Shown one piece after another: positions 1-26,964 of a stretch of 32,675 nt of DNA. Each line of letters begins with the position of its first letter. Position 1 is the first letter of the stretch. Source of the DNA: Flavobacteriales bacterium (GTDB lineage: Bacteria > Bacteroidota > Bacteroidia > Flavobacteriales_D > UBA2798); assembly GCA_019694795.1 (NCBI GenBank), contig JAIBBF010000031.1:1-32675 (forward strand), in the 5' to 3' direction. The position numbers and the translations under genes were made by a program. The notes under the pieces are model-generated. The model had not been told where the DNA came from and did no database searches. It saw only the letters and a list, made by a program, of their open reading frames with translations.

Positions 1-14
1 CTTACATCTTTAGC

Positions 15-1469
15 ATGCGTCATATTTTAATTTCAGGCTTCATCCTGTGTTCTGTAATTGCCAATTCTCAAAACGAAGTTGACGCATTAAGATATTCTAA
101 TATCGGTTTTGGAGGTACAGCTCGTTCCACATCGATGGCGGGTGCCATTTCTGCTTTGGGGGCAGATCCTTCGTGCTCAGCGATTAACCCCGCAGGGTTC
201 GGACGATTCACGCGTTCTGAATTTTCATTCGGGCTTAATTATTTCGACATCCAATCCAACACTTCGTTCAACGGATCCAATTCACACGGTGGAAGAGCAA
301 ATTTAAACGTGGCAAATTTTGCATTAATTGGTTCCAGCGAGCCTCAAAACTCAGAAGACTGGAAGCGAATTCAATTCGGAATATCCTATCAGCGTTATGC
401 TAATTTCAATAATAAAATCACCATAAATGGTGACAATAACTCCTCGATGCTTGATGCTTTCGTAGCTGAAGCAAATGGAACAGCAGAAGCAAATTTGCTC
501 GATGAAAAACCATTTTATTCGGGTCCGGCCTATTGGGCTTATTTAATAGATCCGATTAGTCCAGGCAACAACACCTATAGCAGTCAGATCCCCGACAGCA
601 GAGTGCATCAAACCAGAAGTATTACGCGGATCGGTTCTATTGGTGAAACCAATTTTACCTTGTCCGGAAATTACCTGGATAAACTATATTTTGGTGGATC
701 CATCGGTTTGCCGAGTGTGAGGTATCAGGATAAATACAGTCATGAAGAAACACCTTTAGATTCCTCACTGTCATTAACCGGATTTACATTTGATGAATCG
801 TTGGTTACACGCGGACTGGGCATCAATTTTAAAGCAGGAATTCTTTTTTCAGCTACCGAATGGTTACGATTAGGATTGGCACTTCATACTCCAACCGGCA
901 TTGGACTCTCAGATCGCTGGAGCACCACTGTATCATCCGAATTTTCGAATGGAGATCAATATTCCGAGACCTCCATTTTAGGTAGCTATAGTTACCACCT
1001 GCGAACACCGGGGAGAGTAATTTTTAGCACTGCTTTCATTATTAAAAAGCAGGGTTCCGTTTCAGTTGATTTTGAACGTGTAAATTATTCGAAGGCCAAA
1101 TTACGCGCCGACAAATTTGAAACGAATCCGTATCCATTTACATTGGAAAACAATGCCGTTCTTACCAATTATCAATCGGCATCCAATATTCGTATTGGAG
1201 CGGAGTGGCGTTTTATTCCCATTTACCTGCGTGCCGGATATGCCATTTATGGAACACCTTTTAAAAATGGCGTTTCCATTTCTGATGCATCAAGAACCTA
1301 CATTACTGGTGGGGTTGGATATAGAAACAGAATATTTTATGTAGACCTTGCCTATGTAAACGGAAAGTGGAAGGAAGATTACTACATGTATAACGCAGCG
1401 CTCACCAACCCGGCTCAGGTGAGTAATACAACACATTCCATTGTATTAACGGCAGGGATCAATTTCTAA
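15..1469 (+). CDS. OmpP1/FadL-like outer-membrane protein
   Basis: Predicted 484-residue outer-membrane beta-barrel of the OmpP1/FadL/TodX type, a family that moves hydrophobic compounds across the outer membrane. An N-terminal signal peptide (about residues 1-19, ending near ANSQ) is followed by a segment typical of Bacteroidota members: a Ser-Met-Ala-Gly-Ala stretch, then a Gly-Ala-Asp-Pro-Ser and Asn-Pro-Ala-Gly pattern around residues 40-60. The rest alternates polar and hydrophobic residues with many aromatics, as barrel strands do, and the protein ends in an aromatic residue (NF). The ATG lies only 14 bases into the window, so its promoter is mostly outside. It converges on the Zn-ribbon gene. 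The substrate cannot be told from sequence; the fold assignment is firmer than the transport role. Confidence 0.8.
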   Translation: MRHILISGFILCSVIANSQNEVDALRYSNIGFGGTARSTSMAGAISALGADPSCSAINPAGFGRFTRSEFSFGLNYFDIQSNTSFNGSNSHGGRANLNVANFALIGSSEPQNSEDWKRIQFGISYQRYANFNNKITINGDNNSSMLDAFVAEANGTAEANLLDEKPFYSGPAYWAYLIDPISPGNNTYSSQIPDSRVHQTRSITRIGSIGETNFTLSGNYLDKLYFGGSIGLPSVRYQDKYSHEETPLDSSLSLTGFTFDESLVTRGLGINFKAGILFSATEWLRLGLALHTPTGIGLSDRWSTTVSSEFSNGDQYSETSILGSYSYHLRTPGRVIFSTAFIIKKQGSVSVDFERVNYSKAKLRADKFETNPYPFTLENNAVLTNYQSASNIRIGAEWRFIPIYLRAGYAIYGTPFKNGVSISDASRTYITGGVGYRNRIFYVDLAYVNGKWKEDYYMYNAALTNPAQVSNTTHSIVLTAGINF

Positions 1470-6833: not shown

Positions 6834-7982
6834 ATGAAAAAATTCATTTTCTTTTTTCTTATAACTGTCATCGCATCTGCCTGCGGAAAAAGTGGCAACA
6901 CGTTGAAAGGGACCTTTAACAATGGAGGTGGACAAACTGTTTATCTCGAGCGATTTGAAAAATCGAAACCTATTATCGTTGATTCTGCAGTAATTGAAGA
7001 CAACGGAAATTTCACGCTTCAATTCCCGAATCAATTAGATATTTATCGACTTCGTATTCATGAAAATGATTTTGCGGTATTAATTCTAGACAGTAGCAAC
7101 ACACCGGAAATTAAAGCAGACGCAGGACAAGTTTTAGCCACCTATTCCGTAAATGGTTCAAAAAACAGTGAGTTGGTTCATGAATTTTTCAAAAAAACGA
7201 ACGAATACCTGGTACAAAGAGAAGAGTTTAGAAAGCGATTGGATGTTATTGCATTGGATGATTCTATAGGCAGAGCTGCAGTACTAGGCGAAATAGAAGT
7301 TGCAAAAACAGAATTTGATAATTACAAAAAAGCTTTCGTGAATGAAAATCCTGCTTCACCTGCACTTATTACGACCATGAATCAGTTTCATCCTTTGGAA
7401 GAAATTGAGTACCTGAAAAAAATAGAAGCTGCACTCGCTGCCTCCATGCCAAATAGTGAGTATCACCAATCGTTAAAACTCACTGTTCAGCAATCTGAGA
7501 TGCAGGCCCAGATGATGGAGATGGAAAAACAACAGGCCGAACTAACTGCTAATCTCTTAAAAACAGGAACGCCTGCCCCGGAAATTGATTTACCGGGAAT
7601 CGATGGAAATAACATTAAACTTTCTTCGCTTAGAGGAAAATATGTCCTCATCGATTTTTGGGCATCCTGGTGTGTGCCTTGCAGGAATGAAAATCCGAAT
7701 GTTGTCCGCTTGTATGAAAAATACAAAGACAAAGGATTTGAAGTGTATTCTGTTTCTCTGGATGATAAAAAAGACAAGTGGATTAATGCCATTAATAAAG
7801 ACGGTTTAGTATGGAAATCGCATGTAAGTGAATTAAAACAATGGCAATCTGCAGTGGTAAGTACTTATGGAATTCAATCCATTCCATTTACCGTTTTATT
7901 AGATAAAAAAGGAAATGTATTAGCAACTAATCTTCGTGGCACACAACTTGAGGATAAGTTGAAAGAACTTTTAGGCGTATGA
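6834..7982 (+). CDS. Thioredoxin-fold lipoprotein (DUF4369 + TlpA-like)
   Basis: 382 residues. A lipoprotein signal peptide ends in IASAC with Cys17 as the lipidated residue, so the protein should be membrane-anchored outside the cytoplasm. Residues about 22-115 resemble the DUF4369 domain often found before thioredoxin domains in Bacteroidota. A helical linker follows, then a TlpA/ResA-like thioredoxin domain from about 245 with active site WCVPC (Cys280, Cys283) and the cis-Pro region SIPFTVL. Likely a thiol-disulfide reductase or oxidoreductase on envelope proteins. It is paralogous to the next gene, which it overlaps by 4 bases (ATGA), so the two are translationally coupled. The partner proteins are unknown. 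Confidence 0.88.
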   Translation: MKKFIFFFLITVIASACGKSGNTLKGTFNNGGGQTVYLERFEKSKPIIVDSAVIEDNGNFTLQFPNQLDIYRLRIHENDFAVLILDSSNTPEIKADAGQVLATYSVNGSKNSELVHEFFKKTNEYLVQREEFRKRLDVIALDDSIGRAAVLGEIEVAKTEFDNYKKAFVNENPASPALITTMNQFHPLEEIEYLKKIEAALAASMPNSEYHQSLKLTVQQSEMQAQMMEMEKQQAELTANLLKTGTPAPEIDLPGIDGNNIKLSSLRGKYVLIDFWASWCVPCRNENPNVVRLYEKYKDKGFEVYSVSLDDKKDKWINAINKDGLVWKSHVSELKQWQSAVVSTYGIQSIPFTVLLDKKGNVLATNLRGTQLEDKLKELLGV

Positions 7983-9190
7983 AATTAATTAAGATATTAT
8001 CTCTGGCAAGTTGTCTGCTTTTTACTGCAAACACGTTTGCTCAAAAATCGGAAGCTTCTAAAAAAGAAAGCGCTTCAACTACTGATGTTAAGGAAGTCAC
8101 TATTGACGCGACCATTAAAAACGGTATCGGCAAAATGATTTATGTTGAGAATTTTGAAAAATCCGGGCTAGCTGCACGTGTCGACAGTGCTACGATTAAC
8201 AAAAAGGGGAAAGTCCTTTTTAAATTAAAAATTGATAAGACCGGTTTTTACCGATTTTCTTCTGTTCCTTCCGACTTTTTTGTTTTAATCCTTCAACCCG
8301 GCGAAAAAGTAGCAGTGATGGCAGATTATGCTCAATTAAATAAATCCTATTCGGTGAAAGGCTCTGTCCATTCACAAAAATTACTTGAGTTTGTTAATCT
8401 GGTTAATCACTATGTGATTGAGCGGGATTCGATACAGAATAAAGTAAAAGAGTTCGCAGGAAAAGGAGACCAGGCCTCTGCCAATAAAGCGAATCAGGAA
8501 GCAACTGAGGCCTACAATCGTTTTATTGTAAACAGAGATAAATTCATCAATGACAATCCTGCATCACCAGCCTTGCTGGGTGCATTAAATCACATCAATC
8601 AAAATCAGGATTTGGAATTGATGCGTAAGATTGAAAATGCACTTGGTACATCCATGCCCGGAAGTCCGTTTCACGAAAGTGTAAAACAATTACGCATGAA
8701 TCTGGAAGCAAAACTTGCGGAAGAACAACGCAAACAAAAAGAACAGGCAGAACTCGCCGGAAGAATTGCTCCAGGAAAACCCGCCCCTGCCATTGAAATG
8801 AATGATGCCAATGGAAATCCACTTCCGCTTTCTTCCTTAAAAGGAAAATATGTGCTCATCGATTTTTGGGCATCATGGTGTGGACCATGCCGTAAAGAAA
8901 ATCCGAATGTGGTTCGCGTTTATAATAAATACAAGGACAAAGGATTTACTGTATATAGCGTGTCCATCGATAGTCAGAAAGCAAATTGGTTAGCCGCCAT
9001 TGAGAAGGATGGACTAAGCTGGCCCAATCATGTTTCACAACTTCTAGGGTGGCAAACTCCCATATTAAAAGAATACGGAATTACAGGTATTCCTTTTACT
9101 GTTTTAATTGATAAAGAAGGAAACATCATACAGACCAATTTACGTGGTCCAATGCTCGAACAAAAGCTGATTGAAATATTCGGATTCTGA
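7979..9190 (+). CDS. Periplasmic thioredoxin-fold protein, paralog of the previous gene
   Basis: 403 residues with the same layout as the gene before it: N-terminal DUF4369-like domain, Gln/Lys/Glu-rich helical linker, C-terminal thioredoxin domain. The active site is the classical WCGPC (Cys301, Cys304), against WCVPC in its neighbour. Its signal peptide ends at a type I site (NTFAQ) without a lipobox Cys, so it should be soluble in the periplasm while its paralog is anchored. Long stretches between the two are near-identical around the active site (YVLIDFWASWC, ENPNVVR, KYKDKGF), indicating tandem duplication. It overlaps the M1 peptidase gene by one base. The redox direction is not decidable from sequence. 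Confidence 0.88.
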   Translation: MKLIKILSLASCLLFTANTFAQKSEASKKESASTTDVKEVTIDATIKNGIGKMIYVENFEKSGLAARVDSATINKKGKVLFKLKIDKTGFYRFSSVPSDFFVLILQPGEKVAVMADYAQLNKSYSVKGSVHSQKLLEFVNLVNHYVIERDSIQNKVKEFAGKGDQASANKANQEATEAYNRFIVNRDKFINDNPASPALLGALNHINQNQDLELMRKIENALGTSMPGSPFHESVKQLRMNLEAKLAEEQRKQKEQAELAGRIAPGKPAPAIEMNDANGNPLPLSSLKGKYVLIDFWASWCGPCRKENPNVVRVYNKYKDKGFTVYSVSIDSQKANWLAAIEKDGLSWPNHVSQLLGWQTPILKEYGITGIPFTVLIDKEGNIIQTNLRGPMLEQKLIEIFGF

Positions 9191-12100
9191 TGAAACATAT
9201 TCTAACGCTATGCATGCTTGCATTAGCAGGCATTTCTATTGCTCAAAAAAACAATACCAAAGCGGAATATTTTCAGCAGGAAGTCAATTATTCCATCGAT
9301 GTAAAACTGGACGATCATCTTCACACCTTAAGTGGATTTGAACAAATCCAATACATCAATCACTCTCCACATCCCATTACCGATATTTATTTTCACCTGT
9401 GGCCAAATGCCTACCGCAGCAGAGAAACTGCATTGGCAAAACAATTACTCGAAAATGGAGAGACCGATATGTATTTTGCGAATCCGCAAATGAATTACGG
9501 GTATATCGATTCGCTCCAATTTATTGTAAATAAAGATACCGTGCGGTGGGAATATGATACCACACATATGGACATTGCTATTGTTCATTTAAAGAAAGTT
9601 TTAAATCCCGGTGACACCGCATTTATTTCTACTCCATTTTTTGTTAAGCTTCCATCCAGTTATTCCCGGTTGGGACATGTAGATCAATCCTATCAAATTA
9701 CCCAATGGTATCCCAAACCCGCAGTATACGACCGTGATGGCTGGCACCCGATGCCTTATCTGGATCAGGGAGAATTTTACAGTGAATTCGGGTCGTTTGA
9801 TGTAAGAATAAGCGTACCAAAAAATTATGTGGTTGCCGCAACAGGAGATTTGTTTGATTGTCCGGAAGAAGAAAAATGGCTGGAGCTTAGAGCTAAAAAC
9901 ACCAAGGCTTTATTGGAAGAAAACCGTATTGATAAACTCGGAAATATCCGCGGTGAATACGACATGGAATTTCCCGAATCTGAAAAACAATACAAAACAC
10001 TGCGGTATAAGCAAAACAATGTTCACGATTTTGCGTGGTTTGCAGATAAGCGATTCTATGTTTTAAGAGGAGAATACAATCTGCCTAAAAGTGGAAGAAA
10101 CGTTACTCTTTGGAGTTTCTTTACCAAAGACAATTCCCGTTATTGGGCGAAGTCGACCCAATACCTGCACGATGCCGTAAAATATTACTCCATGTGGAAC
10201 GGGGAATATCCGTACAATGTGGTGAGCGCGGTTGACGGAACCATTTCCGCCGGTGGAGGAATGGAATATCCTACCGTTACCGTCATCGGAGAATCCAATT
10301 CCGATATCGGACTTGAAACCGTTATCATGCATGAAGTGGGTCACAATTGGTTTTACGGTATTTTAGGAAGTAATGAGCGAGATCATCCATGGATGGACGA
10401 AGGATTAAACTCCTTTAATGAAATGCGCTACATTGAAACCAAATATCCGGAACTTTCATTGTTGGCTTCCTTTGCACCTCAGCTTTCATCTAAGAATGAG
10501 TTTTTCGATTTAAAAGAAACCAAACAACGTGCTCAATATTACATTTCCTATGTAATGAATGCCCGCAGAAATCTGGATCAACCCATTGAAGAAAAATCGG
10601 AAAACTATACGCCGACTAATTACGGAGGAGTAGTTTATTCCAAAACAGCATTGGCATTTGCCTATTTAAAAGCGTATCTGGGAGATAAAACTTTTGATAA
10701 ATGTATGCATGCCTATTATGAAAAATGGATGTTCAAACATCCTTCACCGGATGATATGAAAGAAGTTTTTCAGGAAACGGCTAAAAAAGATTTAAGTTGG
10801 TTTTTCGATGGCGTTATAAAAGAAAACCAGGTTATCGATTATAAATTCAAACGTAAAAAACGAGTGGACCGCCGATCTTCCAAAACGTATACCTGGATGA
10901 AATACGAGGAGAGTTTGGTGGTAGTTAATAAAGGAACTGCCGATGTTCCGTTTTGTATCAATGGCGTAAAAGGAGATACCCTTTTTAATACGGTTTGGTA
11001 TCCCGGACACAAAGGAAAAGCAACGATTAATTTTCCGAATGGTCCTTATGACTATTTCAAAATTGATTTCGACGAACGCATTCCGGAGGTTGACCGTAAA
11101 AACAATATGATGAAAGAAAAAGGATTATTCCGGAGAATGGAACCCTTAAAATTTCAATTCATCACCAGCCTGGAAAATCCAAAAAAATCAGTGATCTACT
11201 GGTCGCCCGTTATCGGAATGAATGCCTACGACGGATTTATGGCCGGATTTCTCCTCTATAACAATTTATTTCCCCAACGAAATTTCGAATGGCAACTCAT
11301 GCCTATGTATGGTTTCCGTTCCAAAAAACCCATTGGTTATGGCAATATGGAATGGCACATTAACACCAGAAAAAGTGATTTGCTAAATTCCATCGATGTT
11401 GGATTAAATGCAGCCAGCTTTCAAACCGAGCGAATTACCATAAATGATTTTACCAGAGAACGCGGATTTATTAAAATTGCTCCACATGTTGGATTTAAAC
11501 TCAAGAAAAAGAAAGCAAGAAGCGTAAACAATCATTATATCAATTTGAGATCCGTAATGGTTTATGAAGACACGGTAGATCGCTGCAATGGCGATTGCAA
11601 TGGATTATTGCCTCAGGATTTCGGTGGTGAATTCGTTCTTTATAATGAAGTTCAATACTTCTATTCCAACACCAACACCTTGCATCCCTGGAATGGAAAA
11701 ATGATGGTGCAACAAAACAATGATTTTTTAAAACTGGAACTGAGTGCTGCATTCAAACGATTTTATAATGCAAAAATGAATTTTGTAGAAGCTCGTGTTT
11801 TTGCAGGGAAATTTATTTACAATAACTCTACCAGCTCCAGGTACAACTTCAGATCCGATGGTCAACACGGAAGAAATGATTACACCTACGACGAAGTATT
11901 CCCTGCGCGTAATGCAACACAAGGTATGTGGATGAATCAATTTGTTGCCAACCAGGGTGCGCTAAAAATCGGAACTGCAAACGGACAAAGCATCGATTGG
12001 CTTACAGCACTCAATTTGAAAGCGTCCTTACCTATTCCAATTATTCACCTGTTTGCAGATGTAGCATTAAGTAAAAACCCTGCCATGGATGCTGTGTTTT

Positions 12101-12288
12101 TATATGACGCAGGAATTTCCATTCCGATGTTCCGTGGAATAGCAGAAGTTTATTTCCCGCTTGTTTGGTCATCCGTAATTAAAGACGAATACAAAGCCAA
12201 TGGATACGGATACGGAAACGCCATCCGGTTTACTTTTAACCTCAACAATTTAAATCCGTTTAAACAGGTTAAAAACATCAAAGGATGA
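9190..12288 (+). CDS. M1-family metallopeptidase with C-terminal barrel-like domain
   Basis: 1032 residues with a type I signal peptide (cut after SIAQ). The N-terminal part has the M1 aminopeptidase layout: a substrate-site GGGMEYP motif (the GAMEN counterpart), then the zinc site HEVGH (His381, Glu382, His385) and Glu404 in WMDEGL, exactly the HExxH-x18-E spacing. The catalytic part ends around residue 640. The last 390 residues are not peptidase-like. They alternate hydrophobic and polar residues with many aromatics and Gly/Asn turns, and the final segments look like outer-membrane barrel strands (GIAEVYFPLVWSSV, NAIRFTFNLN). I infer a surface or outer-membrane-anchored peptidase; the barrel is inferred by eye. 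Coupled to both neighbours by overlaps of 1 and 4 bases. Confidence 0.88.
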   Translation: MKHILTLCMLALAGISIAQKNNTKAEYFQQEVNYSIDVKLDDHLHTLSGFEQIQYINHSPHPITDIYFHLWPNAYRSRETALAKQLLENGETDMYFANPQMNYGYIDSLQFIVNKDTVRWEYDTTHMDIAIVHLKKVLNPGDTAFISTPFFVKLPSSYSRLGHVDQSYQITQWYPKPAVYDRDGWHPMPYLDQGEFYSEFGSFDVRISVPKNYVVAATGDLFDCPEEEKWLELRAKNTKALLEENRIDKLGNIRGEYDMEFPESEKQYKTLRYKQNNVHDFAWFADKRFYVLRGEYNLPKSGRNVTLWSFFTKDNSRYWAKSTQYLHDAVKYYSMWNGEYPYNVVSAVDGTISAGGGMEYPTVTVIGESNSDIGLETVIMHEVGHNWFYGILGSNERDHPWMDEGLNSFNEMRYIETKYPELSLLASFAPQLSSKNEFFDLKETKQRAQYYISYVMNARRNLDQPIEEKSENYTPTNYGGVVYSKTALAFAYLKAYLGDKTFDKCMHAYYEKWMFKHPSPDDMKEVFQETAKKDLSWFFDGVIKENQVIDYKFKRKKRVDRRSSKTYTWMKYEESLVVVNKGTADVPFCINGVKGDTLFNTVWYPGHKGKATINFPNGPYDYFKIDFDERIPEVDRKNNMMKEKGLFRRMEPLKFQFITSLENPKKSVIYWSPVIGMNAYDGFMAGFLLYNNLFPQRNFEWQLMPMYGFRSKKPIGYGNMEWHINTRKSDLLNSIDVGLNAASFQTERITINDFTRERGFIKIAPHVGFKLKKKKARSVNNHYINLRSVMVYEDTVDRCNGDCNGLLPQDFGGEFVLYNEVQYFYSNTNTLHPWNGKMMVQQNNDFLKLELSAAFKRFYNAKMNFVEARVFAGKFIYNNSTSSRYNFRSDGQHGRNDYTYDEVFPARNATQGMWMNQFVANQGALKIGTANGQSIDWLTALNLKASLPIPIIHLFADVALSKNPAMDAVFLYDAGISIPMFRGIAEVYFPLVWSSVIKDEYKANGYGYGNAIRFTFNLNNLNPFKQVKNIKG

Positions 12289-13031
12289 CCCCCGGGAAAA
12301 AAATATATTTTGCCAGTGATTTTCATCTAGGTGTTCCAACCTGGGAAGAAAGCAGAAAGCGGGAAGATAAAATCATTCGGTGGCTTACAGAAATTGAAAA
12401 GGATGCAGAAGAGATCTACCTGGTAGGAGATGTTTTCGATTTCTGGTTCGAATATAAACGCGCCATACCAAAAGGATTTGTAAGGCTACAAGGAAAAATC
12501 GCTTCACTTTGCGATAAAGGAATTCCTGTTAAAATTTTTATTGGTAATCACGACATGTGGATGTTTGATTATCTGCCCAAGGAATTAGGTGTGGAATTAT
12601 TCAGGGAACCCATTCAAAAATCATATAACGGAAAAACATTTTATATCGGTCACGGCGACGGATTAGGTCCCGGTGATTACGGTTATAAATTCATAAAAAA
12701 AATATTCCGTAATAAAATTTGTCAATGGCTTTTCGCTCGTTTACATCCTAATTTCGGAATTGGAATTGCAGATTATTTCTCTCGATCCAGCAGAAAAAAA
12801 ACAAAGCACGAAGATCAATACCTCGGCGATGAAAAAGAATACCTGGTGAATTACATTAAGGATCTAGAAAAAAAAGAGCACTACGATTATTATGTTTTTG
12901 GTCACCGTCACCTTCCCATTGATATGACCATTGGAAAATCGCGTTATATTAATCTTGGCGACTGGATCGGATTTTTCACTTATGCCGAATTCGACGGATC
13001 AGAAATTCAATTTAAAAAATTCGAAGCGTAG
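12285..13031 (+). CDS. lpxH: UDP-2,3-diacylglucosamine diphosphatase (LpxH type)
   Basis: Calcineurin-like metallophosphoesterase, 248 residues. The family motifs appear in order: SDFHLG (Asp12, His14), GDVFDFW (48-54), GNHD (87-90), GHGDG (122-126) and FGHRH near residue 210. The arrangement, especially DVFDFWFEY and the long helical insertion after GHGDG, fits LpxH, which hydrolyses UDP-2,3-diacylglucosamine to lipid X in lipid A synthesis. It lies in the same rightward run as lpxK, which acts two steps later, supporting the assignment. It starts within the stop region of the M1 peptidase gene (ATGA) and ends one base from the stop of the opposing PKD gene. LpxG/LpxH2-type or other phosphoesterase activity is less likely. 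Confidence 0.86.
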   Translation: MTPGKKIYFASDFHLGVPTWEESRKREDKIIRWLTEIEKDAEEIYLVGDVFDFWFEYKRAIPKGFVRLQGKIASLCDKGIPVKIFIGNHDMWMFDYLPKELGVELFREPIQKSYNGKTFYIGHGDGLGPGDYGYKFIKKIFRNKICQWLFARLHPNFGIGIADYFSRSSRKKTKHEDQYLGDEKEYLVNYIKDLEKKEHYDYYVFGHRHLPIDMTIGKSRYINLGDWIGFFTYAEFDGSEIQFKKFEA

Positions 13032-13032
13032 C

Positions 13033-16000
13033 TTATCTTCTTAGTACGGTTACATGGCCGTAATAATCCTGAATATCTCCATTGGCATATTCAACATTTG
13101 CTTTCCAAACATAAACATCCTGCTTCACGGCTTCTCCTTTATACGTTGCATCCCAGCTGTCGTTTATGGAGTATCCGTCAAATAATTTTTCACCCCAACG
13201 ATCAAACACCATCCAGTGAATTTTTACAATGTTAGATCCCGTAACAAAGAAATTATCATTTCTACCGTTTCCATCAGGACTAATTGCATTAGGAGCAAAG
13301 AAGGTCATTACCTCTTCAATCACCACATTTCGTGAAATTGTATCGCGACAACCAAATTCATTGGTAACAATTTGTGTTATGGTGTAAGTGTTCGGTTCGT
13401 AATAAGTCACCATTGGTGATGATTCATTACTGTATTGTCCGTCACCAAAAGAATATTCCCACAATACTGCACCACTTGATAAATCGTTCACCTGAATATC
13501 CGGCTGATAAATGGTAGTCACATATGGATCAGGTTCAAAATTGGCAACTGGTTGCGGATAAACAACAATTGGATAGGTTAAGGTGTCGCTAAAAATACAA
13601 CCATCACTTGTGGTAACCTGAACAGAAACATAATACGAACCATCATTCATATAAATATGATCCGGACTCTGACCGAAGGATAAAAATCCATCTCCAAAAT
13701 CCCAAACCCAGGAAACCACATTTGCATTTCCTGTAGTGGTAGATTGATCAGTAAAGTGAACATTTAAAGGAGCACATCCACTGGCTATTGACGGGAAATA
13801 ATCAAAGTTTACAATTGGTAAAGTAGCTACAGGCTGCACAATGGTATCTGTACAACCATTTGTTGTTATCACTACAAAAGTCACATAAAACGTATCGGAA
13901 TACGCATTGAATACATGTTGATCTTCCGGCAACACACTTGTACTTCCATCTCCAAAATCCCAAAACCAACCAGCTATAGTATCACCTGCAGGAACAGTAG
14001 ATGCGTCAAAAAATGAAACGGGTGTACCAAGGCAGGTTACATTATTGGTAAAGGCAGCGGTGGGACTTCCAAACACCAAAATATTTTGTACGATGGTGTC
14101 TTTGCAGGAAAAATTATTAGTGACAATTAACTCAACATTGTAATTTCCTGAAGCAACATAATTATGGGTTGGACTTTGAACATTATCAGAAAATCCATCA
14201 CCAAAATTCCAATTCCAATTGGTAATATTTATTGTACTTAAATCGGTAAATGTTAAACCAATGCCCGAACATCCACTGTTACTTGAGAATTGAGCATTCG
14301 GCAATTCATTCACTACAATGGTATCTACCACTTGTGATACACAACCGCCGCTACTGGTAACGGTATGCGTTACAAAATAAATTCCCGGTGTAGTATAAGC
14401 ATAAGAACCTGTAGAAGATGTAAAAGTTGAACCGTCGCCCATATCCCATGTTTGAGATACGACTGTTCCAAAATTAATGGTAGAATTATCCGTAAACGTA
14501 AAGGTCTCCATGGCACAAAGTGTATCCGGAAGAGAAACTCCTGCAATTGCATCTGCACTAACAGTAACTACTCCAAATGTAAAATCGGAGCAATTATTTC
14601 CTGCACCTTCTGCTACCAGAGTAACAATATATGATCCTGCATTTGTATACAGATGCGAAACTATGGGACCACCGGTTGCAACATTTCCGTCACCAAAACT
14701 CCATGTCCACTGCGTAGGAAATCCGGTAGAAACATCTGTAAAAATTGTAGGAGAACCTAAGCATACCGTATCTGCAGTAAATGCCGCAACGGGAACATCA
14801 TTTACAACTACAGCTTGTTGCATGGTAGTATCACAACCGTGAATATTACTTACAGTAAAAGTTACATTGTAGATGCCCGGATTCTGATAGATGTAAGTTG
14901 GGTTTTCTGCAAAAGAATTATTGCCATCTCCAAAATCCCAAAACCAAGATGTTAATGCTGCAGAATCGACAGTTAAATCACTAAAGTGCGTGATGTTAAA
15001 CAAACAAACGGTATCAGCAGAAAATGCTGCATCAGGTACAGTATAAACCTCAACAGCAACTGTAGTTGTATCCAAACATCCGGATGGATTGCCGGAAATT
15101 AATGTGACATTATAAATTCCTCCATTAAGAAAATCATGCGAAGGATTTTGTGTGTTGCTTAAAGGTGTTCCATCTCCAAAGTCCCAGGTCCATTGTACCG
15201 GCGATCCCAACGAGGTATCCGTGAAAATAACAGTTTGTCCGGCGCATACCGTTGTGTTAACGAAACCTGCTTCCGGTTGGGGGAGTACGCTTACCGATTG
15301 CACAAGTGTATCTTTACATCCGAAAACATTAGTAACAATCAGTTGAGCTGAATAATTTCCCTGTGCGCCATAAGTATAAACCGGATTAACCACTGTAGTG
15401 GCAGAACCTGCTTCTCCTAAATCCCATTGCCAGTCAATAGCATTAATAGATGCATCCGTAAAATTGGTGGGATAAGAAAAACATGCCGTAGTAAATGAGA
15501 AATTGGCAGTAGGATTAGGGTTGACTGTTACAGTATGTAAAACAGTATCTGTGCAACCAAACGAGTTGGTAACAATTAACTCCACATTATAAGTTCCACT
15601 CGAAGGAAACAAATGAAATGGATTCTGCAAGGTTGAAACCGGAGATGCATCTCCAAAATTCCAATGCCATTGAGAAGGTGAGGTAGACAAATCTACAAAT
15701 GCAGTTGCAAATCCATCGCAAATAGTGTCATTGCTAAATGCAGCCACGGGCAGAGGAAAAACCTGAATATTCTGATGGAGAGAGTCGACACATCCAAATG
15801 CATTTTCAGTAATTAAGGTAATAGAAAATGTTCCCGGATTGGTGTAAGTATGTATCGGATTTTGAAGTGAAGAAACCGGACTGCCATCGCCAAAATTCCA
15901 TTGCCATTGATTGGGATTTCCTGATGTAACGTCTGAGAAATTCGTTACACCACCTAAACATGGTGTATTGGAAGTAAAGGATGGATTTGTACGCGGAAAT

Positions 16001-19000
16001 GCATCAACAGTGTAGGAAATGGAATTTGTACATCCGGATGCCGCAAATCCTGCCGTTAATGTTACTGTATAGGTTGAAGCAGTATTGTAAACATGAACAA
16101 GGGAATCTAAATTGGATGAATTGGACGTTCCGTCTCCAAAATTCCATACATAGGTGTCCGGATTCCCTAAGGATTGTGAAACAAAAATGGTAGTGTCGTG
16201 GGTGCAGACTTCCTGAAAAGAAAAATCTGCAGTGGGTATTCCTGTAATAGTGATTGTGTGACTAATGGTATCGGAACATCCTGCGCCTCCAAAAGAAATT
16301 AAGGTTACAGTATAAATTCCGGTAGCAGCGTAAGTGTGTGAAGGGTGTTGCAATGTTGATGTTGATCCATCACCAAAATCCCAGTTCCATGCAACAGGTA
16401 CTCCACTTGTTTGATCGGTAAATTGAGTAGCGCTTCCCAAACAAAAAGAAGTCGCAACAAAATTTGCAACAGGCACTGCATTTACAATAACATTTTGTGT
16501 AATGGAATTGGTACACCCCACTCCATTAGTGGTTGTTAATGTAACGGAATATGTACCGGCTGCTGCATAAACATGATCAGGGTTCTGCAAAGTAGAAACG
16601 GGACTAGCATCTCCAAAATCCCAGGACCAACCTACTGCTGTTCCTGTTGACAAATCCGAAAACTCAGTTGTATCTCCAAAACAAACAATAGAAGAAGTAA
16701 AGGCAGAACTTGGAATAGAATCAATCACCACTGCATGCGTTACAGTATCTCTGCAGGAAAATCCGGTGATCGCAATTAATTGTACTGTAAAGGTTCCCTG
16801 ATTGGAATAATTATGAGAAGGACTAATTGCAGTTGATGTTCCTCCATCTCCAAAACTCCATTGAAAAGAAGAAGCACCCGTTGAATTATTTAACATTCCA
16901 ATTGGTGTTAAAGCACAAACTGTATCCGGAAGTGGAGTAAAATCTGCAATAGGCAATGGATGAACTAAAATTGTAGTTGTAGCCGTACTGGTACACCCAT
17001 TGGCACTGGTGATGGTTAATGTAACCGTATACGTTGAATCAACACCCGTGGTAGTGTAGGTTTGTCCACCCGGACTCTGACTATTACTGGTGTTTCCATT
17101 TCCGAAATTCCAGGAATATGATTCTCCTCCAATAACGGGACTTGTATTATTAAACGCAACATTCAAAGGTGAACAACCGGAAGTTGGTGTTGCCGTAAAG
17201 CTTACAACAGGTAGTGGAAATGTGGTAATCGATACAGTATCGGAAGAAGAACAACCTAAAACATTAACAGTGTAAATCACTTGTGATGTACCTGCAGTTG
17301 AATAGGTGACAGCAGATGGAGTAAACGCAGTAGAAGTAGCGGGCGATGATCCTGTCCCGAAGCTCCAGCTATTGGTTCCACCTGGTGTTGAATTATTGGT
17401 AAAATTCACAACATGTGGAATACATCCGGTAATTGGACTCGCAGAAATATCTGCAACAGGATAAGGCAATACTACCACTGTATGAAGTAAACTATCCGTT
17501 CCGCAAAATCCACTTACTACATCTTTTATCACATAGGTTCCTGCACTTGCATAGGTATGCGTAAACGGACCTTGCGTATTAGCTGAAGTGCCATCTCCAA
17601 AATCCCATGTCCAGTTCAACATATCACCGCGTGATGCATCTGTAATGGAAATGGATTGTCCTACACAAATGGTATCATCTGAAATGGTAAAAATCGCATC
17701 CACTGCAGGGTGAACCAAAATACTTTCTGCATCCGAACGAACACCACAATGATTGCTAACTGTTAAACTTACTGTATGCGTTACTGCGGTATTTCCTGGA
17801 GGAGCTGTAAAAACCTGTGAGGGTAAATTGTAGGCTGAACTTGTAAACACACCATCGACATACCATGCGTAACTGGCATTATTTCCGGATGAATTATTTG
17901 TAACATTTACGGTTAATGGCGTACATCCTTCCAGTGGATTTGCAATAATAGCAGCAATGGGAATTGAATCAATCACAATGTTTGTGATGGTGGTATCGAA
18001 TCCACATGCATTACCTGCAATCAGCATCACCTGATAGGTGCCTTGTGTAGGATATGTTTGAGCAGGAGGATTAATAACATTGGTATAGGTATTTCCATTC
18101 CCCATGCTCCAGAAATAATTATTGGCAGGTTGCGCTCCGCTGGATAAATTGGAATAGGTTACATTTTGAGGTGCACATCCTAAATTTCCTAAACCAGCAA
18201 GTGAGGAAGTGAAATTTGAATTAGGTCCAGCAACAATTACAATTGGACTAATTGTCGCCATTGCCATATTGCAGGAATTAGCTGCTGTAAGTGAAATGGT
18301 ATATGTTCCGGAAGTGGTATACACATGTGGTGGCGGTGTAGAGGAAGTGGTGACTACCGGTGGAGATCCGTCTCCAAAATTCCAGGTGTAGGTATTTGCA
18401 TTTACCGATAAATTCTGAAGTGTAGTTAATGTATGCGGTGCACATCCGGAATACTCCGTAATATCGAGCGTCATCGAAGCGGAAACATACTTTTCAAAAA
18501 CAACAGTAAGTGTTGCCGTAGTTGTACAACCATTCGCATGCGTTGCAGTTAAGGTAACGGTGTAAGTACCATAACTTGTATAGGTATGAGATGGGTTAGG
18601 TAGCGTTGATGTATTACCATCACCAAAATTCCACAGAATACTTGTTGCATTTGTTACTACACTGGTGAAGTTCACCGTTTCACTTACAGAAGGATTTCCG
18701 GGCAATAAACAATTCGTTAAATCACCATCACCATCATCACCGGAAATGGAAACAGTGGGGGCATCTAAAATGGTGACCGTTGCTGTTTGCACATCTGAAC
18801 ATCCGGCAAAATTGGTGACTGTTTGCGTTACGGTATAGGTTCCGCCAGCCGCATACGTATGACTCGGACTTTGAGAAGTTGATGTTCCGCCATCTCCGAA
18901 ATTCCAGCTGTAGGTGGTTGCACCCGTAGTTCCAGTAGAAGTATTGGTAAAAGAAACCGCAGAGCCTGCACAGGCATTGTTATTTACAATATTAAATCCT

Positions 19001-19380
19001 GCATTGGGTGTTGGGAAAACAGTAACCGTTACAAAAGCAGTATCTGTACAAGGAACGGAAGGATCTGTTGCTATTAACCGAAAAGTATAGGTACCTGCAG
19101 CAAATACATTGCTGTTATTCGGATTAGATAATCCACTTGTATTATCGAATAAAACACCATTTCTGTACCATTTGTAAGTGGCACTATTTGCATTGGCTCC
19201 GGTGGATGTATTGGTAAATGAAATGGAGGTAAAACCGGTACCGCAAACATTAACGGGAGTTGCGGTAAAAGACGCTGTTACGGCCGGGCAATCCGCTTTC
19301 ACCTTTCCCGGCAAAATTGCACCGAGAAAATAGATGAAAAACATCCAAAATACTTTAGACTGTTGGCAAGCAGCTTTCAC
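13033..19380 (-). CDS. Giant PKD-repeat protein with T9SS type B sorting domain
   Basis: 2115 residues. After an N-terminal secretion signal (hydrophobic about 11-24, cut near KVKA) come about 24 PKD/Ig-like units of roughly 83 residues, most marked by W-x-(F/M)-G-D/N-G followed 12-18 residues later by H-x-Y. Units 1 and 6 are degenerate. Most units carry two Cys positioned to pair. The last 85 residues are the gliding-motility-associated C-terminal domain (PNAISPDGNGRND, then VFDRWGEKLF), the type B signal for T9SS export. Such proteins act as adhesins or matrix proteins outside the cell; the ligand is unknown. The start is GTG: there is no upstream ATG in frame, and the first internal Met (residue 13) would lose the basic N-terminus. 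It converges on lpxH with a one-base gap. Confidence 0.9.
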   Translation of the reverse strand: MKAACQQSKVFWMFFIYFLGAILPGKVKADCPAVTASFTATPVNVCGTGFTSISFTNTSTGANANSATYKWYRNGVLFDNTSGLSNPNNSNVFAAGTYTFRLIATDPSVPCTDTAFVTVTVFPTPNAGFNIVNNNACAGSAVSFTNTSTGTTGATTYSWNFGDGGTSTSQSPSHTYAAGGTYTVTQTVTNFAGCSDVQTATVTILDAPTVSISGDDGDGDLTNCLLPGNPSVSETVNFTSVVTNATSILWNFGDGNTSTLPNPSHTYTSYGTYTVTLTATHANGCTTTATLTVVFEKYVSASMTLDITEYSGCAPHTLTTLQNLSVNANTYTWNFGDGSPPVVTTSSTPPPHVYTTSGTYTISLTAANSCNMAMATISPIVIVAGPNSNFTSSLAGLGNLGCAPQNVTYSNLSSGAQPANNYFWSMGNGNTYTNVINPPAQTYPTQGTYQVMLIAGNACGFDTTITNIVIDSIPIAAIIANPLEGCTPLTVNVTNNSSGNNASYAWYVDGVFTSSAYNLPSQVFTAPPGNTAVTHTVSLTVSNHCGVRSDAESILVHPAVDAIFTISDDTICVGQSISITDASRGDMLNWTWDFGDGTSANTQGPFTHTYASAGTYVIKDVVSGFCGTDSLLHTVVVLPYPVADISASPITGCIPHVVNFTNNSTPGGTNSWSFGTGSSPATSTAFTPSAVTYSTAGTSQVIYTVNVLGCSSSDTVSITTFPLPVVSFTATPTSGCSPLNVAFNNTSPVIGGESYSWNFGNGNTSNSQSPGGQTYTTTGVDSTYTVTLTITSANGCTSTATTTILVHPLPIADFTPLPDTVCALTPIGMLNNSTGASSFQWSFGDGGTSTAISPSHNYSNQGTFTVQLIAITGFSCRDTVTHAVVIDSIPSSAFTSSIVCFGDTTEFSDLSTGTAVGWSWDFGDASPVSTLQNPDHVYAAAGTYSVTLTTTNGVGCTNSITQNVIVNAVPVANFVATSFCLGSATQFTDQTSGVPVAWNWDFGDGSTSTLQHPSHTYAATGIYTVTLISFGGAGCSDTISHTITITGIPTADFSFQEVCTHDTTIFVSQSLGNPDTYVWNFGDGTSNSSNLDSLVHVYNTASTYTVTLTAGFAASGCTNSISYTVDAFPRTNPSFTSNTPCLGGVTNFSDVTSGNPNQWQWNFGDGSPVSSLQNPIHTYTNPGTFSITLITENAFGCVDSLHQNIQVFPLPVAAFSNDTICDGFATAFVDLSTSPSQWHWNFGDASPVSTLQNPFHLFPSSGTYNVELIVTNSFGCTDTVLHTVTVNPNPTANFSFTTACFSYPTNFTDASINAIDWQWDLGEAGSATTVVNPVYTYGAQGNYSAQLIVTNVFGCKDTLVQSVSVLPQPEAGFVNTTVCAGQTVIFTDTSLGSPVQWTWDFGDGTPLSNTQNPSHDFLNGGIYNVTLISGNPSGCLDTTTVAVEVYTVPDAAFSADTVCLFNITHFSDLTVDSAALTSWFWDFGDGNNSFAENPTYIYQNPGIYNVTFTVSNIHGCDTTMQQAVVVNDVPVAAFTADTVCLGSPTIFTDVSTGFPTQWTWSFGDGNVATGGPIVSHLYTNAGSYIVTLVAEGAGNNCSDFTFGVVTVSADAIAGVSLPDTLCAMETFTFTDNSTINFGTVVSQTWDMGDGSTFTSSTGSYAYTTPGIYFVTHTVTSSGGCVSQVVDTIVVNELPNAQFSSNSGCSGIGLTFTDLSTINITNWNWNFGDGFSDNVQSPTHNYVASGNYNVELIVTNNFSCKDTIVQNILVFGSPTAAFTNNVTCLGTPVSFFDASTVPAGDTIAGWFWDFGDGSTSVLPEDQHVFNAYSDTFYVTFVVITTNGCTDTIVQPVATLPIVNFDYFPSIASGCAPLNVHFTDQSTTTGNANVVSWVWDFGDGFLSFGQSPDHIYMNDGSYYVSVQVTTSDGCIFSDTLTYPIVVYPQPVANFEPDPYVTTIYQPDIQVNDLSSGAVLWEYSFGDGQYSNESSPMVTYYEPNTYTITQIVTNEFGCRDTISRNVVIEEVMTFFAPNAISPDGNGRNDNFFVTGSNIVKIHWMVFDRWGEKLFDGYSINDSWDATYKGEAVKQDVYVWKANVEYANGDIQDYYGHVTVLRR

Positions 19381-20525: not shown

Positions 20526-23354
20526 TTATCGTGCAATCAAAAGTTTGCCTTGATGCACATATTTTCCGGCTTGTACATGAACGATATATGTTCCGTTAGC
20601 TAATTCCGCTACGTTGATGTCGGCATATTGTTTACCGGCGTTACGTTGACCTAAAGACAAGGTCTGAACTTTTTGTCCTGCAAGGTTGTAAACGCTCAAT
20701 ACTACATTTCCGTTTTCTTTCATATCAAAAGAAACTCTTCCGTTATCCTGCATTGGGTTTGGATAAATAGAAACCGGTAAAACATTCGACAAGCTGTTGT
20801 TGTCTGTTCCAGGATCTTTAACACTTAACCATGCTTCAGATCTCCAGATACCTCTACCAAAAGTTCCAAGGTAAACTTCACCCGGACGATTGGTTCCTTC
20901 ATCCCAGCCTCTCCATTGTTGACGAACAGAGTAAACAGGAACAGTTTGAGGACCATTAACCTGGCTTTGGAACGTCCACACAGTAGAAGTTCCATTCAGG
21001 TTATCTGTAGCATAAGCTCCGAACTCAGTACCGATGATAGCTTGATCCGTATTGTTTACATTGATCACTGCGTCGTACACAGGAATGTTAGGAAGATTAC
21101 CGTGAATAGAAGTAAATGAAGTTGTAGTAGAGGTAGATGCTGCAGTGTTAGATTCTAAAACACGTGCGGTTTGGAATCCGGTTAATGTAACAATTACATG
21201 CTCCGGATCTGTCATGTCAACACCTATACCATCAACTGATCCACCTGAACCATTGAAGATTTGTGTTACCGTAATATTGCTTACATCATAAGTAGGCGCA
21301 TAGAAGGTGCTGAAACCTGAAATACGGTACAGATCACCTGTTGAAGTACCAACATATAAATGCTCACCATCATGGCTAAATTCTAATGCAGTTGCAACAA
21401 CTCCGGTTTGTAAAATTCTGAAGTTAGGCGTAACACTGAAACGAAGTGCCTCACGAGTAACACGAACTTCAGTACCTAATCCAATAGCATAAAGTGACTG
21501 AACGCGGTCTTGCAATGTAATTACATTGGCAGAGTCGTGTGTTGCAACGATATTGGTTGGAGTGATGTAATAAAGTGGTTGTTGTAAAGTTTGAGAGAAA
21601 TAATGGATGGTATCTCCGGCTGTTGCTAAAATATCACCGGTTACGGTGTTATTGTTTCCTAATTGAACACCAATAGAATCCAATGCATTTACATCATTAG
21701 GATTTTCCCATAAGCGTCCAACCGTGTGGAAAGGAGAGCCTGATGGAGGAGAAAAGAATGCATTAAAGGATGCACCGCCATCGTCTGAACGTTGCATATC
21801 TCCATTATAAACTGAAGCAAAAATTACATCTTCTTTAATATGTGAAATATCACAATCAAAACCATCACCACCACGAACCTGGTCGAACGACAACAATGTA
21901 ACACCTGTGTGTGTATTCAGGTTGGTACCGTTATCTTGCGCACCACCAATTACATCTCCATCTGCTGAGAAACCGATGCCATAGAATTGAGTTACGTTAT
22001 AACCACGGTTGGCAGGGAAGAAAATAGATCCTTTGTCAGGAGATTTTCCAATACCACCATCGTTACCGATATAAAGAATACCGTTTTGATCCCATTCCAT
22101 TTCATGGTTATCTGCGTGAACATAGATTGGCGAAAGTGGAGAAGCGAACCACAATGAGCGTTGTTCCCATTGACCAAAAGCAGGATTTGTGCCCGCCGCT
22201 CTTTCCCATGCATATACATCGATACCTCCTAAAAGCGCCTTTTCAGGTGCTCCAGGAATAACAGTGATTACGTTGTCGTAAACACCTTGTCCGTTTTGAG
22301 AAATAAAAGGATCGAAAGAAGGACTGGAAGATGGTGCAATTTCGGACCAGGTTAATCCATTGTCTTCTGAAAAATATTGACCTTTCAATGTTCCTCCACC
22401 AGTTGTAACTACTGATGCAAAAAGATTCCAGGCATTATTTGAATTTTTCTCATGAGAGATTGCAAGTTCAATACGTCCAACCCCTGAACTTGGGATTTGT
22501 GTTGAACCAGTACCTGATACGTTGGTAAAGTTAACACCTCCGTCGGTTGAAACATAGGTACGAACACCTGTAGATGCCATTGCACATGCAACAACATTTC
22601 CGTCTTTAGAGATTTTTACATCGTAACAATTTCCGGTTCCCATACCATTGTTGTTAATGGTTGTAATGGTTGCACCGTCGTAAGTTTTTAAACCGCCGCT
22701 GGTACCACACCAGATTTTGTTCGGATTATTCGGGTCTGCCTGTAACTCCACCCAATCTTCGTTGGCTGATCCAGACACCTGATTCCAGGTTTGACCTAAG
22801 TCATCGGTGTAGAACAATCCGTCACCAACAAATGCTTCGTTAAAGAAGAATCCATTAGAAAATCCTGTTCCAACATATAATCTTCCATTGAGGGTTTGCG
22901 TCATGGAAGCAATGGATAAAGTCTGATCGAAATTATCTACTCGTCCCCAGGAATTACCGCCGTTAGAAGAAACGAACAATCCGCCCGACACACTACCTGC
23001 CCAAACAAGGTTCGAGTTGTTTTTGTCGATACAAATTGCGCGGGTACGTCCACCTACGTTATCCGGACCTTCTTCAATCCAAGGCATATCCAGTGAACGA
23101 TTCATACCACCGGCCATTAAGGCTTGCATGAATTGTGCACGGGTTTGCTTAATTAAAGCGGGATTGTACACACCGTTTGCGTCTAAGCGTTTCGACATGT
23201 AGTGCTCCATTGCCTGATCAACCGAAGGTTTTTCGTTGTCGTTCTGACGGGGAGAATAGGTCAGCTCGTTTGAGGACAGAAATGGAGTAGCTACCATTAA
23301 CCCGGCAACTAACCCAAGGCCCAACGTTCCAATGAGTAAATTTTTGTTTTTCAT
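20526..23354 (-). CDS. BNR/sortilin-like beta-propeller protein with T9SS type A signal
   Basis: 942 residues. An N-terminal hydrophobic signal (about 5-27) is followed by a short helical pro-region. From residue about 92 the motif W-x-E-x-G-P-x-N-x-G-G-R-T-R opens a beta-propeller region with BNR/Asp-box hairpins: SSNGGNSW, TDDLGQTW, STDGGVNF, SEDNGLTW and SDDGGASF. The layout resembles VPS10/sortilin-like or YCF48-type glycosidase-fold propellers. The last 85 residues are a type A T9SS sorting domain (YPNPMQDNGRVSF, then VYNLAGQKV and a final basic residue). So it is exported through the outer membrane and probably attached to the surface. Catalytic residues of a glycosidase are not evident. 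Single gene, with a strong terminator. Confidence 0.88.
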   Translation of the reverse strand: MKNKNLLIGTLGLGLVAGLMVATPFLSSNELTYSPRQNDNEKPSVDQAMEHYMSKRLDANGVYNPALIKQTRAQFMQALMAGGMNRSLDMPWIEEGPDNVGGRTRAICIDKNNSNLVWAGSVSGGLFVSSNGGNSWGRVDNFDQTLSIASMTQTLNGRLYVGTGFSNGFFFNEAFVGDGLFYTDDLGQTWNQVSGSANEDWVELQADPNNPNKIWCGTSGGLKTYDGATITTINNNGMGTGNCYDVKISKDGNVVACAMASTGVRTYVSTDGGVNFTNVSGTGSTQIPSSGVGRIELAISHEKNSNNAWNLFASVVTTGGGTLKGQYFSEDNGLTWSEIAPSSSPSFDPFISQNGQGVYDNVITVIPGAPEKALLGGIDVYAWERAAGTNPAFGQWEQRSLWFASPLSPIYVHADNHEMEWDQNGILYIGNDGGIGKSPDKGSIFFPANRGYNVTQFYGIGFSADGDVIGGAQDNGTNLNTHTGVTLLSFDQVRGGDGFDCDISHIKEDVIFASVYNGDMQRSDDGGASFNAFFSPPSGSPFHTVGRLWENPNDVNALDSIGVQLGNNNTVTGDILATAGDTIHYFSQTLQQPLYYITPTNIVATHDSANVITLQDRVQSLYAIGLGTEVRVTREALRFSVTPNFRILQTGVVATALEFSHDGEHLYVGTSTGDLYRISGFSTFYAPTYDVSNITVTQIFNGSGGSVDGIGVDMTDPEHVIVTLTGFQTARVLESNTAASTSTTTSFTSIHGNLPNIPVYDAVINVNNTDQAIIGTEFGAYATDNLNGTSTVWTFQSQVNGPQTVPVYSVRQQWRGWDEGTNRPGEVYLGTFGRGIWRSEAWLSVKDPGTDNNSLSNVLPVSIYPNPMQDNGRVSFDMKENGNVVLSVYNLAGQKVQTLSLGQRNAGKQYADINVAELANGTYIVHVQAGKYVHQGKLLIAR

Positions 23355-26230: not shown

Positions 26231-26935
26231 ATGGCGGATTTTTATGGGGTGAAAACAGAAACAAGCCAATTCATCCGTGAAGAATCCTGGTTAAAACTCC
26301 TTCGTGAAGAGCTAAGCAAACCTTATGTTTCGGACCTATTGAAATTCGTTGCAGAAGAAAGAAAAAAACATCCCATCTTCCCTCCCGAAGAAATGGTTTT
26401 TAAAGCCCTGGAACTATGTCCGCCTCAAAAAACAAAGGTGGTCATTCTCGGGCAGGACCCTTACCATGGTCCCGGTCAAGCTCACGGCCTGGCCTTTTCT
26501 GTCCCGATGGGACTAAAATTTCCTCCTTCGCTTCGAAATATTTTCAAAGAATTACAGAGCGATTTAAATACAGATGTACCTTTTTCAGGGGATTTAACTG
26601 CCTGGGCCGAACAAGGTGTTTTACTTCTAAATTCTACACTAACCGTTAGATCCGGTGAAGCGGGGAGTCACCAAAAAAAAGGATGGGAACAGCTCACCGA
26701 TGAGATCATCCGGAAATTATCTGAGCAGGAGCAACATCTCGTTTTTATTTTGTGGGGGAATTATGCTATTCAAAAAAAGGAATTAATTGATGAAAACCGG
26801 CATTTGATTCTCAGTTCAGCACACCCCTCACCTCTTTCTGCCCATCATGGATTTTTTGGAACCAAGCCTTTTTCCAAAGCCAATGAATACTTGATTAAGC
26901 ACCATAAAAAACCAATCCATTGGGAACTGCAATAA
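26231..26935 (+). CDS. ung: Uracil-DNA glycosylase
   Basis: Family 1 uracil-DNA glycosylase, which removes uracil from DNA as the first step of base-excision repair. 234 residues. The water-activating motif GQDPYHG is at residues 74-80 (Asp76, His79). LLLNSTLTVR and the Leu-loop HPSPLSAHHGFFG with catalytic His follow. The frame is open from a TTG at 26180, but the 17 extra residues are not family-like. The ATG at 26231 follows an A-rich stretch typical of Bacteroidota translation starts. An imperfect -7 box (TTTATTTG, 26184-26191) lies upstream. The following barrel gene begins 29 bases after the stop. It is divergent from the small lipoprotein gene. Confidence 0.96.
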   Translation: MADFYGVKTETSQFIREESWLKLLREELSKPYVSDLLKFVAEERKKHPIFPPEEMVFKALELCPPQKTKVVILGQDPYHGPGQAHGLAFSVPMGLKFPPSLRNIFKELQSDLNTDVPFSGDLTAWAEQGVLLLNSTLTVRSGEAGSHQKKGWEQLTDEIIRKLSEQEQHLVFILWGNYAIQKKELIDENRHLILSSAHPSPLSAHHGFFGTKPFSKANEYLIKHHKKPIHWELQ

Positions 26936-26964
26936 CAATAATTCATTTCTTTCGTTATGGCAGG

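Follow-up and report, generated by a model that had tools for sequence, protein, structure and literature searches.

A class-wide M1 metallopeptidase with a predicted Omp85-type outer-membrane barrel in place of its C-terminal helical domain

Enzymes joined to Omp85-type barrels

The patatin-like Omp85 proteins PlpD and FplA, formerly assigned to type Vd secretion, join an N-terminal soluble enzyme to a C-terminal 16-stranded Omp85-type barrel. The phospholipase at the N-terminus of PlpD had for a long time been regarded as exported, until it was located in the periplasm (PMC11116518). Here, we describe a protein of similar layout (in the following, the M1-barrel protein) from a Flavobacteriales bacterium. 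Its gene covers positions 9190..12288 (+) of the window, i.e., the whole analysed stretch of 32,675 nucleotides (nt; assembly GCA_019694795.1, contig JAIBBF010000031.1). It encodes 1032 amino acids (aa), which we read, given the list of open reading frames (ORFs), the Pfam family PF01433 and a full-length model, as signal peptide, M1 metallopeptidase and Omp85-type barrel. The segment under study, 11110-12288, comprises codons 641-1032 and the stop codon of this ORF, 9190-12288 (+). An initial annotation of the window had suggested a C-terminal outer-membrane beta-barrel for it, which is borne out by the predictions below.

The likeness to PlpD/FplA may extend to a periplasmic enzyme, which is shown for PlpD (PMC11116518) and which we infer for the M1-barrel protein. 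They differ in the enzyme, a patatin phospholipase there and an M1 zinc peptidase here, and the M1-barrel protein has neither POTRA domains nor an RGF/RGY motif. Heinz and Lithgow (2014) distinguish ten Omp85 subfamilies, none of which is named with an M1 domain in the accessible part of their paper; they take the barrel as defining and do not require POTRA (PMC4104836). Two of these subfamilies, noNterm and Metallo, are likewise described there as Omp85 barrels without POTRA, and Metallo also has an N-terminal enzyme, although with the domain PF00149 rather than an M1 peptidase. The Metallo subfamily is termed metalloprotease in that part of the paper, yet PF00149 denotes calcineurin-like phosphoesterases in Pfam.

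When considering the barrel only, which is what our comparison covers, the DUF5686 proteins (PF18939) of Bacteroidota are the closest named relatives by profile (91.0%). Most of them also lack RG[YFW], and their N-terminal part is another one. The M1 enzymes tricorn F3, PepN, ERAP1 and LTA4H share with our protein the N-terminal, catalytic and beta-sandwich domains as well as the zinc site. They differ in showing a helical domain IV where a membrane barrel is predicted here and in having GxMEN instead of GGMEY. Searches of the open-access literature for M1-Omp85 fusions or DUF5686 yielded no account of such a fusion. Predicted models of such M1-barrel proteins probably exist in public databases. 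Our best reading is a layout like that of PlpD with a peptidase in place of the phospholipase.

Catalytic part and predicted barrel

For comparison, 80 homologous loci were fetched from named genomes, and 80/80 gave open frames matching the query. The main alignment consists of 76 sequences, i.e., 75 of the 80 loci and the window protein. L078, L106, L107, L123 and L126 are excluded from alignments A2 and A3, since their frame or match stops before the C-terminus.

PF01433 (Peptidase_M1) is the sole Pfam domain of the 1032-aa protein (residues 374-540, E-value 2.5e-17, 63.6 bits vs. a cut-off of 27.7); a patatin domain was not found by Pfam. The initial annotation had called the catalytic zinc site complete, and this holds for the whole alignment. 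The zinc motif HEVGH (residues 381-385, 10330..10344 (+)) is followed 18 residues on by the third zinc ligand E404 (HExxH-x18-E; 10399..10401 (+)), and H381, E382, H385 and E404 are identical in 76/76 rows. So is the probable catalytic tyrosine Y483 (10636..10638 (+)), which we take, reading by eye, to be equivalent to LTA4H Y383 and PepN Y381. The stretch GGMEY (residues 356-360, 10255..10269 (+)) presumably sits at the position of the M1 exopeptidase motif GxMEN. This motif marks aminopeptidases of the M1 family, though not every M1 member, and its glutamate binds the free N-terminus in M1 enzymes. Letter for letter, GxMEN is not present: M358, E359 and Y360 are found in 76/76 rows, i.e., the Glu is always kept and the Asn position is always Tyr. 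Judged by these conserved residues, the active site is intact, and since the GxMEN glutamate is kept, aminopeptidase activity is likely.

The domain layout follows from the full-length model (predicted local distance difference test score, pLDDT, 91.6; predicted template modelling score, pTM, 0.90). A probable Sec signal peptide cleaved by signal peptidase I (Sec/SPI) covers residues 1-18 (9190..9243 (+)). It was read by eye and ends in SIA with cleavage before Q19; Q is found at the equivalent site in 71/73 homologues (those of the 80 for which our script located the landmark motif). The M1 core with N-terminal beta and catalytic domains spans about residues 28-545 (9271..10824 (+)), given structural matches from residue 25-30 onward. 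It is followed by a predicted beta-sandwich resembling M1 domain III (residues 551-625, 10840..11064 (+); strands 551-560, 572-580, 588-594, 597-604, 609-615 and 622-625). The best structural matches of the full-length model are M1 enzymes, namely tricorn F3, ERAP1 and PepN (Z-scores of 28-31), and LTA4H is also among the matches; structures from a viral library gave no match at E-values up to 0.001. Tricorn factor F3 scores best (Z 31.3, 461 residues, root-mean-square deviation (rmsd) 3.0) and is aligned over its chain residues 1-513 of 780. The model thus retains domain III but has no helical domain IV of the M1 kind, and the barrel stands in the place of the latter.

A model of residues 636-1032 alone (pLDDT 93.0, pTM 0.89) shows 16 strands, within the 10-16 expected by the initial annotation. 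The last loop contains a short helix, and the chain ends in a short helical tail. We therefore predict with high confidence that the C-terminal ~390 residues form a 16-stranded outer-membrane barrel, with strands 1-16 at residues 667-1018 (11188..12243 (+)). Searching the Protein Data Bank (PDB) with the barrel, Foldseek reports 83 matches at E-values up to 0.001, and 50/50 of the matches listed are by title chains of BamA, TamA, FhaC, CdiB or the SAM complex. A second structural aligner gives the same picture, i.e., 50/50 matches listed are BamA, TamA, FhaC or SAM-complex chains with Z-scores of 15.1-18.1 (best 18.1 over 288 residues). By its predicted fold, the barrel is hence of Omp85 type. 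The alternation of polar and hydrophobic residues noted at the outset is above chance. The odd/even hydropathy difference over the 16 predicted strands averages 2.40 vs. 1.37 (standard deviation 0.25) after within-strand shuffling, and 1/5000 shuffles reached 2.40; this test depends on the model, from which the strand limits derive (one strand was widened manually). The same strand columns show differences of 2.12 to 3.14 across the 76 alignment rows.

The gap between strands 11 and 12 is with 58 residues the longest of all inter-strand gaps in the segment model. This loop (residues 879-936, 11824..11997 (+)) lies where Omp85 proteins carry L6. Its length ranges from 53 to 72 across the 76 rows, and D897, R907 and G923 (76/76 each) as well as Q917 (75/76) are conserved. 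The terminal strand AIRFTFNL (residues 1011-1018, 12220..12243 (+)) contains F1014, found in 69/76 rows, and precedes the short helical tail 1019-1032. As a side observation, strands 7 and 8 are connected by a predicted extracellular loop with a cysteine pair, CNGDC (residues 799-803, 11584-11598). Near this position in alignment A1, the nearest relatives show CAEC (L006) and CESC (L007), and the other A1 rows show none.

Kinship and distribution of the barrel

Sequence searches with the segment 641-1032 gave no match in Pfam, NCBIfam or PDB, which agrees with the earlier remark that it contains no peptidase motif. The profile search of the segment alone, proposed along with the barrel, becomes informative when profiles are compared with each other. 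The segment profile (A3) matches the DUF5686 barrels with the 91.0% given above, collinearly over residues 9-394 of 397, and DUF5686 in turn matches the Omp85 profile with 84.3%. The control profiles reach 0.6% (FadL) and 0.1% (Porin_O_P), such that we rejected a plain porin or FadL barrel; the absence of porins among the 50 matches listed by the second aligner would be insufficient alone.

Further M1 proteins with C-terminal barrels link both ends. The C-termini of one group (L002, L276, L055, L057, L059) score 95.9% vs. Omp85 and 97.8% vs. A3, and those of another (L048, L050, L051, L052) score 97.1% and 98.0%, respectively, with controls at 3.3% or less for both groups. A third and weaker group of long M1 proteins (L058, L060) reaches 57.8% vs. 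Omp85 and 24.8% vs. A3. Pooling eight of the nine C-termini from the two stronger groups yields profile A4, which matches A3 with 98.3% and also matches short stretches in frames found by PF01103 (e.g., G102:C51, G083:C13). Given the fold, the DUF5686 bridge and these other M1-barrel groups, the barrel is probably of Omp85 type by descent as well, even though its direct match to PF01103-type profiles is weak. PF18939 (DUF5686) itself is matched by 2/76 segments, weakly (best E-value 1.3e-4) and without a hit for the window protein.

The module boundary is well placed, since the alignment of the barrel-less M1 paralogues L061, L062 and L063 (668-684 aa) begins at query residue 27 and ends at 639-642. 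In a phylum sample, 225/296 genomes gave a match to the protein, with many of the matching frames being about 640-690 aa long, and a search with only the C-terminal segment was positive in 39/60 relatives. Profile A3 was found in 19/99 phylum genomes, i.e., in 19/24 from the own genome, the same order or the same class and in 0/75 others. Within a larger class sample, 209/295 genomes show the barrel, mostly with one match each and in listed frames mostly of about 930-1060 aa. The M1-barrel fusion is thus conserved across the class and no local oddity. Both this conservation and the specifically Omp85-like barrel are supported here and go beyond the initial annotation.

The genome encodes a second M1-barrel protein (L002, G000:C1:115399-118686 (+), 1096 aa) whose loop holds a canonical LRGY. 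Of 40 relatives, only G000-G002 gave full-length or near-full-length matches to it, with the one in G001 being divided between two frames. We also observed free-standing frames of 403-472 aa that match A4 and leave no room for an M1 domain (L313-L325, e.g., G126:C1:296820-297920), most of them from a single family (f34) that belongs to another class; judged by these matches, they are possible barrel-only relatives. In L045 (G310:C66:302544-305796), a 524-aa barrel-less M1 frame lies directly before a 967-aa M1 frame of barrel-form length, in tandem.

Placement of the enzyme and gene context

We consider it likely that the protein is an M1 aminopeptidase tethered to the outer membrane by an Omp85-type barrel and facing the periplasm. 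It would be exported by Sec, and its C-terminal 16-stranded barrel would insert into the outer membrane. The strand number together with the Omp85 orientation would place both barrel ends in the periplasm, i.e., for a specifically Omp85-like barrel the periplasmic side is the default location of the enzyme. The M1 domain, fused just before strand 1, would be held in folded form against the mouth of the barrel on its periplasmic side; the single full-length model (pTM 0.90) suggests that enzyme and barrel are arranged in a fixed manner. From this position on the inner face of the membrane, the zinc aminopeptidase would remove N-terminal residues of peptides or unblocked protein ends. Possible substrates are peptides arriving via outer-membrane importers and the unblocked N-termini of exported proteins. 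Helical domain IV closes the active-site cavity in other M1 enzymes. As the barrel replaces this domain, its gating role may in part fall to the barrel and the membrane.

Two other readings are both improbable in our view. Display in the type Vd manner, where the barrel carries the M1 domain across the outer membrane such that the enzyme faces outside and feeds on external peptides, was the first proposal for PlpD (PMC4104836, PMC11116518). Other M1 enzymes of this organism are probably secreted, given that the paralogue L003 ends in PF18962 (E-value 1.7e-11). On the other hand, the barrel ends would both lie in the periplasm as described, a large folded zinc enzyme is predicted to be fixed on the barrel (pTM 0.90), and the enzyme of PlpD was later located in the periplasm (PMC11116518), from which we expect a periplasmic, outer-membrane-anchored aminopeptidase here too.

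Omp85 barrels are mainly known as machines that insert or export proteins. In this role, the barrel would act like BamA or FhaC and the M1 domain would clip or proofread passing substrates. The barrel fold is indeed that of assembly and translocation proteins, and the loop at the L6 position is preserved, including its invariant D, R and G. But the lack of POTRA and of the RGF/RGY motif (0/76) speaks against it, and the genome has two PF01103 genes, so the Omp85 role is not vacant; we hold this function to be about as unlikely as surface display. The outcome contrary to the initial annotation, i.e., a segment folding as one of the soluble beta-sandwich or helical domains usual in M1 enzymes, is hardly credible. 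Nothing speaks for it beyond the segment having no family match of its own, while the 16-strand model is of high confidence, all listed fold matches are barrels, the usual beta-sandwich (551-625) already precedes the segment and the helical domain IV is absent.

Supported by computation are the M1 core, the intact active site, the 16-stranded Omp85-type barrel, the absence of POTRA and the conserved fusion. Several observations nevertheless weigh against a periplasm-facing aminopeptidase on an Omp85-type barrel. The Foldseek TM-scores among the matches listed are modest (0.38-0.49 over the model, rmsd 7.6-13.5), and strand 16 has only 4 residues by DSSP, which makes a closed strand 1-16 seam less certain. 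With regard to PF01103-type (Omp85) barrels, the barrel profile reaches just 20.3%, though collinearly, and the 18 families listed as matching any of the 76 segments at E-values up to 10 do not include PF01103 (0/76). No POTRA family was found in the protein by Pfam, and residues 551-625 fit M1 domain III instead. Furthermore, the RGF/RGY motif ([VLIM]RG[YFW]) occurs in 0/76 rows of the loop between strands 11 and 12; it is found in 27/30 sequences of the Omp85 set, in 4/5 of the L002 group and in 0/4 of the L048 group, and RG[YFW] is missing from 27/30 DUF5686 sequences. Since the L6 residues are not cleanly aligned with RGY in the profile alignments, we do not claim that R907 is equivalent to the RGY arginine. 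Lacking POTRA, a PF01103 match and RGF/RGY, the protein is best described as having an Omp85-type barrel, not as a member of the BamA, TamA or PlpD families. Its GGMEY instead of GxMEN makes exopeptidase specificity uncertain. Finally, we infer membrane insertion, the periplasmic side, aminopeptidase activity, the substrates and the gating alike.

The M1-barrel gene is flanked by close neighbours on the same strand. Upstream are two genes for DUF4369-thioredoxin proteins by Pfam, 6834..7982 (+) (PF14289, PF00578) and 7979..9190 (+), and downstream is one for an LpxH-like metallophosphoesterase, 12285..13031 (+) (PF00149), which matches NCBIfam LpxH models with E-value 1.4e-24, under their cut-offs. 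The four genes overlap by 4, 1 and 4 nt, which suggests one transcript. The LpxH-like gene lies directly downstream in 42/71 loci (those of the 80 with at least 900 nt of flank), such a thioredoxin directly upstream in 34/64 (at least 1500 nt), and both together in 27/58. This gene order is thus kept beyond close relatives and hints at an outer-membrane setting. As GatB also takes part in the neighbourhood (24/56 loci, those with at least 5500 nt upstream), we give it little weight, i.e., it may be plain gene order.

Elsewhere in the window, 26920-28698 (+) is another Omp85-superfamily gene with POTRA (PF07244, E-value 7.6e-9) and an LRGF stretch; the C-terminal part of its product scores 75.2% vs. 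the Omp85 profile and 0.3% vs. the M1 barrel. Two proteins, 20526-23354 (-) and 29301-30662 (-), carry sorting domains (PF18962) of the type IX secretion system (T9SS). The organism hence has T9SS cargo, to which the M1 paralogue L003 also belongs. The 2115-aa protein encoded at 13033-19380 (-) shows repeated PKD-like units and a C-terminus that resembles type B T9SS signals, and 1-1469 (+) encodes a FadL/TodX-type outer-membrane protein (PF03349).

The predicted placement can be related to the Q-rule of Bacteroidetes, i.e., most Sec/SPI exported proteins start with Gln that is cyclised to pyroglutamate, which stabilises them, presumably vs. aminopeptidases (PMC10653852, PMC5837995). The aminopeptidases named in the accessible parts of these sources are dipeptidyl-peptidases of P. 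gingivalis and no M1 enzyme. As an enzyme that is mostly single-copy, conserved throughout the class and predicted to be fixed to the outer membrane on its inner face, the M1-barrel protein would be a candidate for this pressure. That it is the main resident threat to free periplasmic N-termini in the lineage, and in this way contributes to the selection behind the Q-rule, is speculation to which we give little credence.

If our reading holds, the M1-barrel protein would be a second example, after PlpD, of an Omp85 barrel carrying a periplasmic enzyme, with another type of enzyme and widespread in its class, and a membrane barrel would stand in place of the catalytic lid domain. It would also offer a specific candidate for the pressure by periplasmic aminopeptidases that is invoked for N-terminal pyroglutamate in Bacteroidetes.

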